Assembly: GCA_026387935.1 (NCBI GenBank) | Contig: JAPLKU010000019.1 | Location: 1 to 64,000, forward strand | DNA length: 64,000 bases | Direction: 5' to 3' | Origin: Gemmatimonadota bacterium | GTDB taxonomy: Bacteria > Gemmatimonadota > Gemmatimonadetes > Gemmatimonadales > Gemmatimonadaceae | Shown: piece by piece, positions 40,156 to 45,459 of the stretch | Position numbering within the stretch: position 1 is the first letter of the stretch | Layout of the letters: the number at the start of each line of letters is the position of its first letter | Translations under genes and position numbers: made by a program | The notes under the pieces: generated by a model | Seen by the model: only the letters and a program-made list of their open reading frames with translations | Told to the model about the DNA's origin: nothing | Databases searched by the model: none

Positions 40156-40422
40156 ATGATCACGAAGAAGGCCCCCAGGCCGAACCGCGAAACGGCTGGT
40201 CCAACCCCGTTTGCGCAGGCGCGAGATGAACTATTCCAGCACATCATCGGATGCGACGTCGTAGGCGCCGACCCCGCGCACCAGAAAGAATGGTTCGACG
40301 AAACACTGTCATACATGAAGGAACGGTTCCACGAGCTCGACCCCGCGAAGCTCACGGAGCTTCGCACGCTGGGCGAACGATTTGCCCAACCCGCCAAGCG
40401 GAACCAGACGGTCAGCGCGTAG
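40156..40422 (+). CDS. Small hypothetical protein
   Basis: 88 residues, no recognised family. Charged and soluble, with a likely helical middle (QARDELFQHIIGCDVVGADPAHQKEWFDETLSYMKERFHEL). No signal or membrane segment. It has its own terminator directly downstream, which supports a real single-gene unit. Confidence 0.6.
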   Translation: MITKKAPRPNRETAGPTPFAQARDELFQHIIGCDVVGADPAHQKEWFDETLSYMKERFHELDPAKLTELRTLGERFAQPAKRNQTVSA

Positions 40423-40479: not shown

Positions 40480-41478
40480 CTACCGGCCCGACGTGCGCGC
40501 GCGCTTGAAAATCAGGGAGAGGCGCGCCCCGCCGCCCACACCAACTTCGATCGCGGGCCGCCAGTGGCCGCGGAAAGGCAAATCGGCCCCGACAATGAGC
40601 AAAAGCCCCACGCGGCCCGCGTCGCCCTCGCGCCACGCGACAAACGCGCCACCGCCAGCGTAGGGCCCCCAGCGCGACTCCGCAAATGGATCGACGAGGA
40701 ACCGCGCGGTCATGTCGGCGCGCACGCTGTTTCGCTGCGCGGTCCCGAGTTCGCGCCCAAATGAGAGCCCGTTGGCGATTCGCACGTAGTAGCCGGCCGG
40801 CACATTCAGCGCCACGCCCGCGAAGGGTCCGCTCCCTGCGCTGACGGCGGCGCCAGCGCTGATTTCCGGCTGGACGGTTGGTGCGAAGGTGAACGCCTGC
40901 GCGGAAGCCGGCTCGGCGGTTGCGGCCAGCCCAGCGACGAGGATGGCGATCGCTGCGGCGGGCCGGCTCCGCGCGAGTGCAATGACGTATTCCGCGATGG
41001 CCACGAGCGAGGTGATGCAGACCACGACTGCGGTGGCCATGATCCATTGCGGGGCGATGTACGCCAGCGCCAACGCGGCGAGCTGCATGACGGTCAGTAC
41101 TTTCCCCGCGATCCGCGGGAGGAACCGAAACTCGCGCCAGAATCCCGTGGCGCGCGCGATGATCCACGCGGTGAGCAGCGACATGTCACGGACGCCGAGC
41201 ATGAGGAGCTGCGGCAAGGTGATGGTCCCGTCGGTCCAGAGCACGAACACGGCCACGATGAGAAAGCAGCGGTCGGCGAAGGGATCGATCATCGCCCCCA
41301 TGCGCGACGACGACCCGCGGGTGCGAGCGAGGTAACCATCCAGAAAGTCCGTGACCCCAGCCGCCCCGATGAGGACCAGTCGCGGCGCCGTGCCCGGAAA
41401 AAACGGGAAGAGCGCGGCCATCACGAGCCGCGACAGGGACACCAGGTTGGGCAGGGTCGCGAGCGCGTCGCGGGCCAT
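40480..41478 (-). CDS. CDP-alcohol phosphatidyltransferase fused to an exported beta-barrel-like domain
   Basis: 332 residues. Residues 1-170 are a polytopic CDP-alcohol phosphotransferase with the complete motif D44-x2-DG-x2-AR-x8-G61-x3-D65-x3-D69, as in PgsA/Pls-type phospholipid synthases. Residues 174-193 form a second, signal-peptide-like segment (AAAIAILVAGLAATAEPASA, then QAF), and 194-332 are strand-rich and glycine-rich (GPFAGVALNVPAGYYVRIANG, YAGGGAFVAWREG, EVGVGGGARLSLIF), like small outer-membrane barrels. Either one polyprotein is processed at A193/Q194 or an internal start makes a second protein. The fold of the C-terminal part is inferred from pattern only. Confidence 0.7.
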   Translation of the reverse strand: MARDALATLPNLVSLSRLVMAALFPFFPGTAPRLVLIGAAGVTDFLDGYLARTRGSSSRMGAMIDPFADRCFLIVAVFVLWTDGTITLPQLLMLGVRDMSLLTAWIIARATGFWREFRFLPRIAGKVLTVMQLAALALAYIAPQWIMATAVVVCITSLVAIAEYVIALARSRPAAAIAILVAGLAATAEPASAQAFTFAPTVQPEISAGAAVSAGSGPFAGVALNVPAGYYVRIANGLSFGRELGTAQRNSVRADMTARFLVDPFAESRWGPYAGGGAFVAWREGDAGRVGLLLIVGADLPFRGHWRPAIEVGVGGGARLSLIFKRARTSGR

Positions 41479-41578
41479 GGGCGTAAGCTAGGAACCGTCC
41501 CAAATGCTTGCCAGCATCGGCCCTGCGACCTAGTTTCGCGGAGCAGGCCGATTGTTCCCTTCGACGGGGTTGGACCGC

Positions 41579-42043
41579 ATGGCCGATACGATTGAACTGC
41601 TCCGAAATGTGGCGATTTTCAAGGATCTTCACGACGGCGAGCTCGCGCGCGTCGCACAGGTATGCCGCACGCAGGAGTTCGTGTCCGGCGAGTACGTGTT
41701 CAAGGAAGGAGAAAGTGGGAACCGGCTCTACCTCATCGTTGCAGGCGATGTGCGCATCAGCCGGACGATTCCGGGAAGCGGCGAGGAAGCCCTCGCCATT
41801 CTGAAGCCCGGCGCACTCTTTGGCGAAATGGCCGTGTTCGACCGCAGTGAGCGGTCCACGGACGCGATTTTAAACGGCGGTACGAAGTGCCTCACCATTG
41901 CCCGGTCGGACTTCGAGCTCCTGCTCGACTTCAACCGCGACATTGCGTACAAGGTGCTCTGGTCATGCATCCGCCTGCTCTCGCTGCGGCTGCGGAGCAC
42001 CAACGACTCGCTGCGGTCGTTCCTCGCAATGAGCATGTTCTAA
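41579..42043 (+). CDS. Cyclic nucleotide-binding domain protein
   Basis: 154 residues, essentially one cNMP-binding domain: LRNVAIFKDLHDGELARVAQVC, FVSGEYVFKEGESGNRLYLIVAGDVRIS and the phosphate-binding cassette PGALFGEMAVFDRSERSTDAI. The cassette has the GE of the consensus, with S/R positions compatible with nucleotide binding. There is no helix-turn-helix, so it is not a CRP-type regulator by itself; it ends in a helical tail. It is divergent from the CDP-alcohol gene. Confidence 0.88.
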   Translation: MADTIELLRNVAIFKDLHDGELARVAQVCRTQEFVSGEYVFKEGESGNRLYLIVAGDVRISRTIPGSGEEALAILKPGALFGEMAVFDRSERSTDAILNGGTKCLTIARSDFELLLDFNRDIAYKVLWSCIRLLSLRLRSTNDSLRSFLAMSMF

Positions 42044-42046
42044 CGG

Positions 42047-42085
42047 AGATGGCAGATGGCAGTTGGTAGGCGGTAGCAGGTGGTA
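42047..42085 (+). repeat. Intergenic copy of the short GGCAG/TGGTAG repeat
   Basis: Imperfect tandem units of about 7 bases (GATGGCA, GATGGCA, GTTGGTA, GGCGGTA, GCAGGTG, GTAGAGC). Bases 42050-42066 match the reverse complement of the ALDH-linker repeat at 4988-5004 in 16 of 17 positions. Confidence 0.6.
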
Positions 42086-42096
42086 GAGCGCACCCA

Positions 42097-42450
42097 ATGA
42101 CACACGGGCCCGCACCGCTCATTCAGCGCGTCGCCGATTTCCGGGGCGTCACGTCGCCAGTCCTGCGGGACGCGGCGGCGCTCTCTGGCCTCGCCCTTTC
42201 CGCTGCTGGCGCGGCCGGTCTCAGCACGATCGAGTCACCGATTGTGCGCTCGTTACCGCGTGATGGGCTCGCGCTCACGCTGTTCCTCGACCTCGGCCAT
42301 ATCGTCGTGCACACGATGCCCGACCGAGAGACCGTCGTGCTCGACCTGCTCGTGGCTGCCGGCCGCGATCCGCAGAAGGCCGTGGACGTGTTCGCGCGAA
42401 AGTTCGGCGTGGCTGAAGCGCGGGCGGCGCAGGCCGTCGACCGCGGGTAG
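42097..42450 (+). CDS. S-adenosylmethionine-decarboxylase-fold protein lacking the pyruvoyl serine
   Basis: 117 residues. It aligns end to end with bacterial SpeH/SpeD proenzymes: ADFRGVTSPVLRD for ADLYGVxxxLL, then LPRDGLALTLFLDLGHIVVHTMPD for GVTAVxLLAESHxSIHTWPE, and VVLDLLVAAGRDPQKAVDVFARKF for AAVDIFTCGxxxxPxxAL. The self-cleaving serine is replaced by Gly67, the preceding Glu by Leu66, and the catalytic cysteine by Ala88; the His (68) remains. It therefore cannot form the pyruvoyl cofactor and is not an active decarboxylase by the known mechanism. A binding or structural role is inferred. No speE lies nearby. Confidence 0.7.
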   Translation: MTHGPAPLIQRVADFRGVTSPVLRDAAALSGLALSAAGAAGLSTIESPIVRSLPRDGLALTLFLDLGHIVVHTMPDRETVVLDLLVAAGRDPQKAVDVFARKFGVAEARAAQAVDRG

Positions 42451-42462
42451 CCAAGGGAACCC

Positions 42463-42785
42463 ATGCCCGCCTACTTCCGGCCCGAAGCGCTCGCGTTTCT
42501 TAAAGGCCTCAGGCAGAACAACAAGAAAGAATGGTTCGAGGCCAATCCCAAAAGGAAATTGACCGGGGTGCTGGCTTCTACCTGCATCTCGAGCCTGGCG
42601 CATCGCTGATCGGGGGAACCGCCTTCAACAAGCGGTTCGACGGCCTCACTGACGACGAACCGGGCGTGAAGCTCACGCTCATGCCCTCGCTGATTGACCG
42701 CGCGATGAAGGACTACGCGCTGATCGTTCCGCTCTGCCGCTGGCTCAACAATGCCCTCGGGTACCCGCGCGCGAAAACGCGGTAA
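42463..42785 (+). pseudogene. Decayed DUF2461 family gene
   Basis: The 5' piece encodes MPAYFRPEALAFLKGLRQNNKKEWFEANPK, the normal DUF2461 N-terminus, and then shifts frame and stops at 42609. The continuation lies in another frame (about 42570-42785): GAGFYLHLEPGASLIGG, then FNKRFDGLTDDEP and RWLNNALGYP. About 80 residues are missing between the first two blocks and about 30 between GASLIGG and the next block, judged from the usual family length (about 210-220). Two or more deletions plus a frameshift make it non-functional. Confidence 0.75.
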
Positions 42786-42791
42786 GCGAGC

Positions 42792-45434
42792 CTAAACCTT
42801 TTTGCCGGTGCCGCGAATCATGCCCTCGACGCGGCAGCCTGGAGTAAACGACTCGCGCGCGATGGCCTGAATCTCCGCAGCGGTCACGCGGCTGATGCGC
42901 GCGTTGAACTGCGCGATCTCATCGAGCGACTCACCAAAGAGCCAGGCCCCTGCCAGGTCGCCCATGATACCCGCGGCCGACTCGCGCCGAATGGCATTCG
43001 AACCGACCGCAAAGGTGCGGGCCTGATGCAGCTCGCGTTCGGTGACCGGCTCGTCGCAGAGGCGCGCGAACTGCTCGAGCAACCCTGCCCGCGCCGCATC
43101 CTCTTTCTCAGGCGACATCGCGATGTAGGCGAGAAATGCCCCGGCGTGGCGCCGCACGATCGGTGCCACAAGCACGCTGTAGGCGAGTGAGCGCCGGTCG
43201 CGCAGCTCTTCGAAGAACCGACCCCCAAGTCCACTGGCGACGCCAGAAAGCATCGCTGCGGCAAAACGGCGCTCATCGCGGCGAAGCGGACCAGGAAAGA
43301 GCATGACAAGCGCCGACTGCGCCTTGTCACGCGATTCCGCCTGTTCGATGACCTTGGCCGGCCACACCGGCGTCAGGGCGCCCTCGCTGGGGCGTTCCGT
43401 GAGATCACCGAAACGGCGCGCGACCGCCGCTACCGCGTCGTCGGGGTCGGCATCGGCAACGCAGACGAGCACGCCCGGCGCCGCGATCGCGTTCGCCTCA
43501 TGCCAGCCCCGCAGCCCCGCGGCGTTCATGCGCCCAACCGACGCTTCGCTGCCGACCACCGACCGCCCGTAGGCGTGTTTGCCCCAAGCCGCTTCGGTCG
43601 CGAGCCGGAGCGGCCATCGGTACATGTCGTCCCGGATCGCGGCGATTTCTGCCAGGGCGACGGCCCGCTCCGATTCCACGGCATCATCGCGGAAGGCCGG
43701 GCGCTGCACGACCTCGCCGAGCAACTCGGCAGCATCGTCGAGGCGCGCGACCGGAACGGAAATCGTCCATTGAAAGGCGTCGGCACCAGCAGATGCGCTG
43801 AGCGCGCCGCCGGCAAACTCAACATCTTCTGCGACTTCCTTCGCAGACCGCCGCTCCGTACCGCGGAGCGCGACGCGGGTCATCAACGACGTCATGCCTG
43901 CCGACGTTTCATATTCGCCGAGGGCGCCGCCCGAGACGAACCATCCGAGGTGCGCAATGGAACCCGGCACGCGTTGAAAGAGAATCGGCACGCCGGTCGC
44001 GGTGCGGTAGACCGTGATTTCTCCGTGACGCCGCTCGAGCTTCCATGCACGTGCACCGCCCTTCACCACCGCCACGGGCGCTGGCATGGTCACGGCATCT
44101 ACCGGCTCAGGACGATCGCCACCGGTGAGGCCCAGTACCTCGGCAGGCCCTGACGCCAATGGCGGCGCATTGAACGGCCGGTACACGAGCAATGCCGCGC
44201 ACTCCGGCGCGAGCCAGCGCTTAGCGACATCAGCCACCTGTTTTGCGCCCACGCCGAGCATCTGGTCGAGATAGGTCGAACCATTTTCCCATCCGCCGGC
44301 GAGCTCCCAGGCCGCGAGATGATTGGCCTGGCCTTCCGCGGTATCGAGCCGGCGCAACCACTGCGACGAAATCAGGCGGCGGGCGCGTTCGATCTCGGCA
44401 TCCTTCACGTCACCATCGCAAACGCGTTCGACCTGGTCCCACGCGGCGCGCAGCGCGCTCGTGGACCGTTCGGGCCGGGCCGTGGCGTGCACGGCGAAGA
44501 TGCCAAGCTCGGTGGGGGTGTAGTTCCAGGCCTGAATCGACGAGGCCAGGCGCCGGTCACGCACGGCGCGATAGAGTCGTGACGCGCGCCCGCCGGAAAG
44601 CACCACCGCGACCACGTCCAGCACCGGTGTGTCGGCGTGCGCCAAGCGTGGCGTGCGCCAGCCGAGCAGGATTTCCGACTGCTGGACGTCGCCGCTCAGT
44701 TCGCGGTAGCGCAGGCCGTCGGCGTGCGCAGCGGGTTCCAGCGGGCCCGGCGTGCGCACGACCGGCTCGTCTGGCACCATCCCGTAGCTACGCCCGGCGG
44801 CCGCAATCGCCGCGGCGGGATCCACGTCGCCAACAATCGCAAGCACCGTATTACGGGGGCGATAGAAGTTCTTGTAAAACGCCCACACCTTCTCGCGCGT
44901 GAGCGTCCGCAGCCCCGCCTCGCGGCCCATGCGCCAGCGGCGAATGCGGTGCGCGTCGTACAGGAGCTCAAACAGCGTCTCAGTGGCGACGGCGGTCGGC
45001 GTGTCGGCCTTCCGCTTGGCTTCTTCGATGATCACCTCGAGCTCGCGCGCCAGTTCGCCCGAATCAATCAGCGAGTTCGCGTACGCGTCGGCCTGGATGG
45101 CGAGACCCGCCTCAAAGCCGGTGGCCGGGAGCACCGTGTAGTAGTGCGTGTGGTCGTAGATCGTCGCGGCATTGAGCATTCCGCCGCTGGCCTTCGTGGC
45201 CCGCGCAATTTCGCTCACTCCGCGGGTTGGAGTGCCCTTGAAGTACATGTGCTCGAGCACATGGGCGATGCCGGAGATCTCATCAGGCTCGTCGAAGTAG
45301 CCGGCGCCGACGTAGGTCACGATCGTCACGACGCCACAGCCGGCCTTTCGCCGCACGATCACACGCAGCCCGTTCGGCAGCGTTTCGCGCACGACGCTGC
45401 CGTCGGGAAACACTTCCGCCAGCAGACGTGGCAT
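42792..45434 (-). CDS. M16 family zinc protease (double-domain, pitrilysin-like)
   Basis: About 880 residues from the ATG at 45434 (a GTG four codons upstream is possible). Two M16 halves: the first is catalytic with inverted zinc motif HVLEHMYFKG (HxxEH) near residue 57-61 and the distal Glu in LEVIIEEAKRK; the second (about 450-880) lacks HxxEH, as normal for the inactive partner domain, and has the R/Y substrate-binding region RSLAYSVLVAP. No signal peptide is visible. It follows an ABC transporter pair by about 25 bases, suggesting peptide export or processing. Confidence 0.9.
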   Translation of the reverse strand: MPRLLAEVFPDGSVVRETLPNGLRVIVRRKAGCGVVTIVTYVGAGYFDEPDEISGIAHVLEHMYFKGTPTRGVSEIARATKASGGMLNAATIYDHTHYYTVLPATGFEAGLAIQADAYANSLIDSGELARELEVIIEEAKRKADTPTAVATETLFELLYDAHRIRRWRMGREAGLRTLTREKVWAFYKNFYRPRNTVLAIVGDVDPAAAIAAAGRSYGMVPDEPVVRTPGPLEPAAHADGLRYRELSGDVQQSEILLGWRTPRLAHADTPVLDVVAVVLSGGRASRLYRAVRDRRLASSIQAWNYTPTELGIFAVHATARPERSTSALRAAWDQVERVCDGDVKDAEIERARRLISSQWLRRLDTAEGQANHLAAWELAGGWENGSTYLDQMLGVGAKQVADVAKRWLAPECAALLVYRPFNAPPLASGPAEVLGLTGGDRPEPVDAVTMPAPVAVVKGGARAWKLERRHGEITVYRTATGVPILFQRVPGSIAHLGWFVSGGALGEYETSAGMTSLMTRVALRGTERRSAKEVAEDVEFAGGALSASAGADAFQWTISVPVARLDDAAELLGEVVQRPAFRDDAVESERAVALAEIAAIRDDMYRWPLRLATEAAWGKHAYGRSVVGSEASVGRMNAAGLRGWHEANAIAAPGVLVCVADADPDDAVAAVARRFGDLTERPSEGALTPVWPAKVIEQAESRDKAQSALVMLFPGPLRRDERRFAAAMLSGVASGLGGRFFEELRDRRSLAYSVLVAPIVRRHAGAFLAYIAMSPEKEDAARAGLLEQFARLCDEPVTERELHQARTFAVGSNAIRRESAAGIMGDLAGAWLFGESLDEIAQFNARISRVTAAEIQAIARESFTPGCRVEGMIRGTGKKV

Positions 45435-45459
45435 CACGCGACCCACGGCACGCGACCGT

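Follow-up and report, generated by a model that had tools for sequence, protein, structure and literature searches.

A Gemmatimonadota clade of AdoMet decarboxylase-fold proteins without the pyruvoyl serine and with a probable new, non-enzymatic role

AdoMet decarboxylase and its relatives

The closest described relatives of the protein discussed here are the bacterial class 1b AdoMet decarboxylases (AdoMetDC/SpeH), with structures from T. maritima (TM0655; 1tlu, 1vr7) and Aquifex (2iii). The protein is encoded in a window of 64,000 nucleotides, which is the whole stretch of DNA that was analysed. It shares with these enzymes the predicted fold, the length, the histidine of the ESH motif, a second histidine and the HTxP motif. 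It differs from them in lacking the pyruvoyl serine, the glutamate preceding it, Ser55 (T. maritima numbering) and the catalytic cysteine, and the clade to which it belongs has also lost the aromatic residue before Pro54. The N-terminal domain of human spermine synthase (3c6k), to our knowledge without AdoMetDC activity, has a similar fold; when the model of the window protein was superposed on this part using VIA-align, Z was 11.5 over 98 residues. The domain has been associated with dimerization (PMC11203672) and is fused to an aminopropyltransferase, while the window protein is a free-standing ORF of 117 amino acids.

Besides the spermine synthase domain, dead AdoMetDC domains are already known from the trypanosome prozyme (PMC5201418) and from the C-terminal SpeD domain of a Victivallis vadensis SpeD fusion (PMC10407285). 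According to the account in PMC5201418, the prozyme (5tvm) is an AdoMetDC-fold paralogue that is not processed, as is predicted for the window protein, but it activates a catalytic partner, and no such partner is seen in 75 of the 92 genomes that carry a serine-less homologue of the window protein. The Victivallis domain, as described in PMC10407285, is likewise bacterial, has lost active-site residues and does not self-cleave; it is, however, joined to an active AdoMetDC, whereas here the gene is independent and mostly found without an active copy. The same source describes the ornithine/arginine decarboxylases SpeDC/SpeDA, which are AdoMetDC homologues with a changed function and in some cases are found in genomes without a spermidine synthase. 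These are pyruvoyl-dependent, in contrast to the serine-less clade, where the serine is missing.

Known dead AdoMetDC domains either partner active polyamine enzymes or are fused to them, while the serine-less clade is a separate gene. Selection has maintained it in two families of a Gemmatimonadota order, mostly without a detectable active AdoMetDC in the genome. No description of a free-standing bacterial family of dead AdoMetDC was found in searches of the open-licence PMC literature, and words that begin with Gemmatimonad are absent from the main texts of PMC10407285 and PMC9992855. On balance, we favour the view that the window protein is an ancient pseudoenzyme with the fold of bacterial class 1b AdoMetDC, which binds or regulates without catalysis and whose present job is probably new and non-enzymatic. 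The clade illustrates how the fold of a self-processing enzyme can outlive its pathway. Since its members pass the Pfam cut-off, they are likely to be annotated falsely as "AdoMet decarboxylase", which in turn would lead to wrong predictions of the spermidine pathway in the carrier bacteria.

The window gene and its predicted product

The gene runs from an ATG to a TAG without interruption (Table 1), in agreement with an earlier, sequence-only reading of this DNA. The nearest in-frame stop upstream is a TAG at 42067-42069, 27 nt before the start codon. A scan of positions 41300-42850 for promoters and terminators found none, and when plasmids and phages were searched for the protein with tblastn, there was no match at E 0.01.

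Table 1. Position of the window gene, its neighbours and the spermidine-synthase-like genes of the window genome (G000)
Feature	Position	Strand	Remarks
Small conserved ORF, 88 aa, no Pfam match	40156..40422	+	Syntenic marker, 76/92 loci
CDP-alcohol phosphatidyltransferase-domain protein	40480..41478	-	Divergent; syntenic, 86/92 loci within fetched flanks
Cyclic-nucleotide-binding-domain (cNMP) protein	41552..42043	+	PF00027, 68.5 bits; 53 nt 5' of the window gene
AdoMetDC-fold protein, predicted non-processing, 117 aa	42097..42450	+	Gly67 at pyruvoyl Ser, Ala87 at catalytic Cys, His68 and His72 retained
DUF2461/TIGR02453 gene remnant	42463..42785	+	Start in one frame at 42463, rest in another frame at 42531-42785
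M16 family peptidase	42792..45446	-	Syntenic, 61/92 loci within fetched flanks
MFS/spermidine-synthase-like fusion	C18:135518-135976		L070
MFS/spermidine-synthase-like fusion	C18:152783-153250		L069
MFS/spermidine-synthase-like fusion	C1:283922-284362		L071

The protein matches PF02675 (AdoMet_dc) over 101 residues with 48.6 bits (cut-off 25, E 1.2e-12), and the HMM similarity bears out the full-length homology to AdoMetDC that had been proposed. It misses the cut-off of the equivalog TIGR03330 (SAM_DCase_Bsu), scoring 36 bits against 75.65. In a single-sequence search of the PDB the match to T. maritima AdoMetDC had an E of no better than 0.067; a PDB search with a profile of 31 clade members reached E 2.5e-10.

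An AlphaFold2 model was made using the window protein and 20 serine-less relatives as input, with no canonical AdoMetDC among them, and had a pLDDT of 89.7 and a pTM of 0.81. The best five PDB rows in Foldseek all belonged to T. maritima AdoMetDC or to Aquifex 2iii (E 1.3e-7 to 5.1e-7), and VIA-align against 1vr7 aligned 113 residues with Z 17.5 and rmsd 2.4. In the predicted structure the AdoMetDC fold is preserved.

The active-site positions were mapped using a phmmer alignment of the window protein to T. maritima 1tlu/1tmi. Ser63, marked as the processing serine by the PDB title of 1tmi, which names S63A as a non-processing mutant, aligns with Gly67, and the preceding Glu62 with Leu66. Ser55 and Cys83, which we take to be a self-cleavage residue and the catalytic cysteine, respectively, align with Ala59 and Ala87, while Phe49, presumably the aromatic residue that stacks on adenine, aligns with Ser52. 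Two histidines are retained: His64 of the canonical ESH motif corresponds to His68, and His68, which we assume to be the processing histidine, to His72. Of the features that mark a functional class 1b AdoMetDC, the window protein lacks the pyruvoyl serine, the catalytic cysteine, the preceding glutamate and Ser/Thr55, and it has the processing histidine and, in the predicted model, the fold. The sequence-only reading had correctly placed Gly67 at the self-processing serine and noted the retained His68, the presumed processing histidine being His72, likewise retained. Its alanine at the cysteine position is also right as a residue, but carries the number 87 and not 88; both positions are alanines in the window protein, and the claim is unaffected.

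The serine-less clade

Matches to PF02675 were found in 138 of 395 genomes of the phylum sample and in 36 of the 61 genomes near the window genome. All 18 genomes of the window's genus have exactly one. None was found in the listed genomes of the related genera g5, g7, g35 and g37, and this absence from several related genera indicates that the role is dispensable.

A tree was made from 146 extracted proteins; as it rests on 118 columns, its inner forks are weak. The extraction was based on the matches listed from the PF02675 scan of the 395 genomes, the weakest matches lying outside it. The scan rows G384x and G080x were left out as no ESH frame was found in their loci. Eight high-scoring matches, from G283, G358, G373, G243, G353, G316 and G090 and one of those from G087, also lie outside the extraction. 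At window position 67 the tree proteins have glycine (63), cysteine (27), alanine (2), serine (53) or arginine (1), and a single branch with SH-aLRT 99 separates the 92 Gly/Cys/Ala proteins from the 53 with serine. The groups were defined by residue 67, and the absence of serine from all 92 is therefore by construction; what is independent of this naming is that a single branch carries the split and that the remaining catalytic positions track it. Judged from the sequences, with 92 serine-less homologues on one side of a well-supported branch, the loss of the serine is more than chance, and orthologues with the same substitutions do exist. All 92 belong to two families of the window's order (f1, 64 proteins; f2, 28). 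When serine-less copies in other phyla were sought with a DNA-pattern scan, which picks up close relatives, at least 20 loci were found, and among the matches listed 19 of 20 were titled Gemmatimonadota, Gemmatimonadetes, Gemmatimonadaceae or Gemmatimonas and one "bacterium".

The partial protein with arginine at the serine position (G368C210) was included in the tree and assigned to neither group. Its locus, L151 (G368:C210:1009-1200), encodes a copy of an otherwise serine-bearing type with a tyrosine following the arginine. Either an error in the assembly or a second loss, of recent date, may explain it.

The clade has conserved positions of its own. Asp25 and Pro48 are found in all 92 proteins, and Ala36, Ala37, Ala39 and Gly41 in 90 each. 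Basic residues are found at position 101 in 92/92 serine-less versus 8/53 serine-bearing proteins, at 102 in 90/92 versus 9/53, and at 94 in 84/92 versus 7/53. Such a pattern would fit a new surface or contact interface, and to us the newly conserved positions indicate that the job of the protein has changed but is real.

It could alternatively be that the old substrate pocket still binds AdoMet, decarboxylated AdoMet or a polyamine and that the protein reports the level of this ligand. The preserved predicted fold and the largely retained His68, His72 and Asp83 would agree with such a sensor, but we consider it rather unlikely, as the positions which we take to be the adenine- and ribose-contact sites of AdoMetDC have changed. 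The aromatic residue immediately before Pro54 is present in 1/92 serine-less versus 52/53 serine-bearing proteins, an aromatic at column 74 in 8/92 versus 52/53, and Glu76 in 26/92 versus 52/53, although 61 of the 92 have either Glu or Asp there. Loss of the position that presumably stacks on adenine argues against AdoMet binding, and the glutamate preceding the serine position is kept in only 5/92 versus 52/53. A role in AdoMet binding, as put forward in the sequence-only reading, is the part of that interpretation that found no support in this form, while the homology, the intact gene, the orthologues, the purifying selection and the lack of a canonical speD did. A response to polyamines is within the reach of the fold family, since putrescine stimulates human and trypanosome AdoMetDC (PMC5201418).

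His68, His72 and Asp83 might also constitute an acid-base or metal site used for another reaction. Among the serine-less proteins His68 is found in 91/92, His72 in 88/92, both together in 87/92, Asp83 in 88/92 and Pro75 in 91/92. However, the two histidines are conserved in the serine-bearing relatives as well (52/53 and 53/53, respectively) and may thus be structural, and His72 is replaced by arginine in three carriers and by glutamine in one. A new enzymatic activity hence seems improbable.

The genome containing the window is 95% complete and no PF02675 protein other than the window protein was found in it; a canonical speD, which the sequence-only reading had suggested looking for, was accordingly not found. 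Among its genes are those for SpeA (858 bits) and for a deoxyhypusine-synthase-family protein of homospermidine biosynthesis (NF001980, 548 bits versus 450), and with these two and no AdoMetDC, polyamine synthesis is expected to proceed without AdoMetDC. Loss of catalysis would be tolerable because this AdoMet-independent homospermidine route is available. PF01916 (SpeY) was found in 349 of the 395 genomes of the phylum sample, the functional type having been checked in the window genome only, and since the family is nearly universal there, a link to SpeY is uninformative for co-occurrence. Three MFS/spermidine-synthase-like fusions coexist in the window genome with no detected catalytic AdoMetDC.

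An AdoMetDC-fold protein without its own activity could, as in trypanosomes, activate a catalytic AdoMetDC. A serine-bearing PF02675 homologue is indeed found in 17 of the 92 carrier genomes, but in the other 75, the window genome included, no serine-bearing copy or other PF02675 match was found. Many of these are draft genomes, but the 75 also include some with an estimated completeness of 100%, such as G006, G014 and G015. The SpeE-domain proteins of the window genome are, moreover, all three MFS fusions. A prozyme-like role is for these reasons very improbable and not general, and it was rejected for most carriers.

Even less credence can be given to a pyruvoyl-type enzyme that is cleaved at Cys67 in some clade members, or elsewhere in the chain. 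The 27 proteins with cysteine at the serine position, and the Ser/Thr that 32 of the 92 have at column 59 (T. maritima position 55) and that is gone in 60, would allow for it, but 65 proteins have glycine or alanine at the serine position (63 and 2), the preceding glutamate is nearly always lost, and cysteine at catalytic column 87 is found in 1/92 serine-less versus 52/53 serine-bearing proteins.

Decay of the gene, which the loss of key residues and the decaying DUF2461 gene next to it might suggest, was rejected as extremely unlikely on the basis of dN/dS and conservation: the dN/dS of the window gene to its nearest relative is 0.077, the gene is present in every genome of the genus, and it has 92 homologues counting the whole clade. 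Within the genus the median Nei-Gojobori dN/dS is 0.17 (144 usable of 153 pairs, with synonymous sites near saturation in many). Purifying selection thus acts on the orthologues, and the earlier view that the gene has not decayed is upheld. The DUF2461 remnant has pieces missing and a frame change compared to the intact copy of 240 amino acids in the relative G001, and with a conserved gene beside it, this decaying neighbour acts as a built-in control that speaks against a pseudogene. In the nearest relative, G003, the DUF2461 family match is limited to a C-terminal piece, while the relatives L185, L188 and L190 have copies of 241 amino acids. One carrier, G049, has a stop within the matched stretch of the serine-less gene, near its end.

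Neighbouring genes and possible partners

The 92 serine-less genes share a common neighbourhood (Table 1), although none of the neighbours is always present. The cNMP gene lies near the serine-less gene in 61 of the 92 loci, counted within the fetched flanks and bounded by contig ends. A Pfam search of the cNMP protein in the window found no DNA-binding domain. At E 1e-40 the gene is present in 135 of 288 genomes of the order, including genera where the serine-less gene was not found; in genus g35, 11 cNMP loci (L218-L226, L228 and L233) have no match to the profile of the serine-less clade within about 1.5 kb. This weakens the case for a strict partnership with the cNMP protein.

Ninety-one loci have 700 nt or more of 3' sequence, and in 48 of them the next same-strand gene found downstream encodes a glycosidase-like protein of about 500 amino acids, and in all 48 carriers that have this gene it lies directly 3' of the serine-less gene. 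It overlaps the latter by 4 nt in L199 (L199:6327-7856), and gaps of 17 to 28 nt separate the two genes in eight further loci of the same set. Sequence searches of Pfam and the PDB gave no useful match for the glycosidase-like protein. A model made from nine sequences (pLDDT 75.6) has a helical N-terminal half (about residues 7-209), in which the helices are probably membrane helices, and an eight-stranded barrel of the TIM type. In Foldseek the barrel matches glycoside hydrolases such as GH113 mannanase (E 1e-5) and PslG (E 4e-5), and it also resembles GH1 enzymes, with Z about 22. The gene was found in 133 of the 288 genomes of the order, not including the window genome, and 85 of these 133 were not scored as carriers of the serine-less gene, so that a strict partnership is weakened here as well. 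When 20 of the 85 loci were read upstream, 18 had no match to the serine-less clade better than E 0.5 and two (L251 and L261) had one, so that these two genomes are carriers after all.

Taken together, the neighbours point to a possible function at the envelope and in signalling. If the window protein is a pseudoenzyme as proposed above, its chain would stay uncleaved and carry no pyruvoyl group. It would then work non-catalytically, as a small binding module, probably a dimer, by which a partner is regulated or scaffolded. What it binds might be a ligand, at the former active site, or another protein, through the newly conserved helix and basic patch. The partner would most likely be encoded in the same locus, which points to the cNMP protein and, where present, the membrane glycosidase-like protein. 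A more specific and speculative version, to which we attach little probability, is that the fold has been rebuilt with a small-residue helix (36-41), a basic patch (94/101/102) and the pair of histidines, and that it links cyclic-nucleotide signalling with an enzyme of the envelope, the membrane-bound glycosidase-like protein.

The cNMP protein itself is 59-88% identical in near-full-length matches and is more conserved than the product of the adjoining AdoMetDC-like gene. The two further members of the serine-less clade that lie 5' of a glycosidase-like gene, L251 (G433) and L261 (G439), come from genera outside the 92 and are not included in that count.
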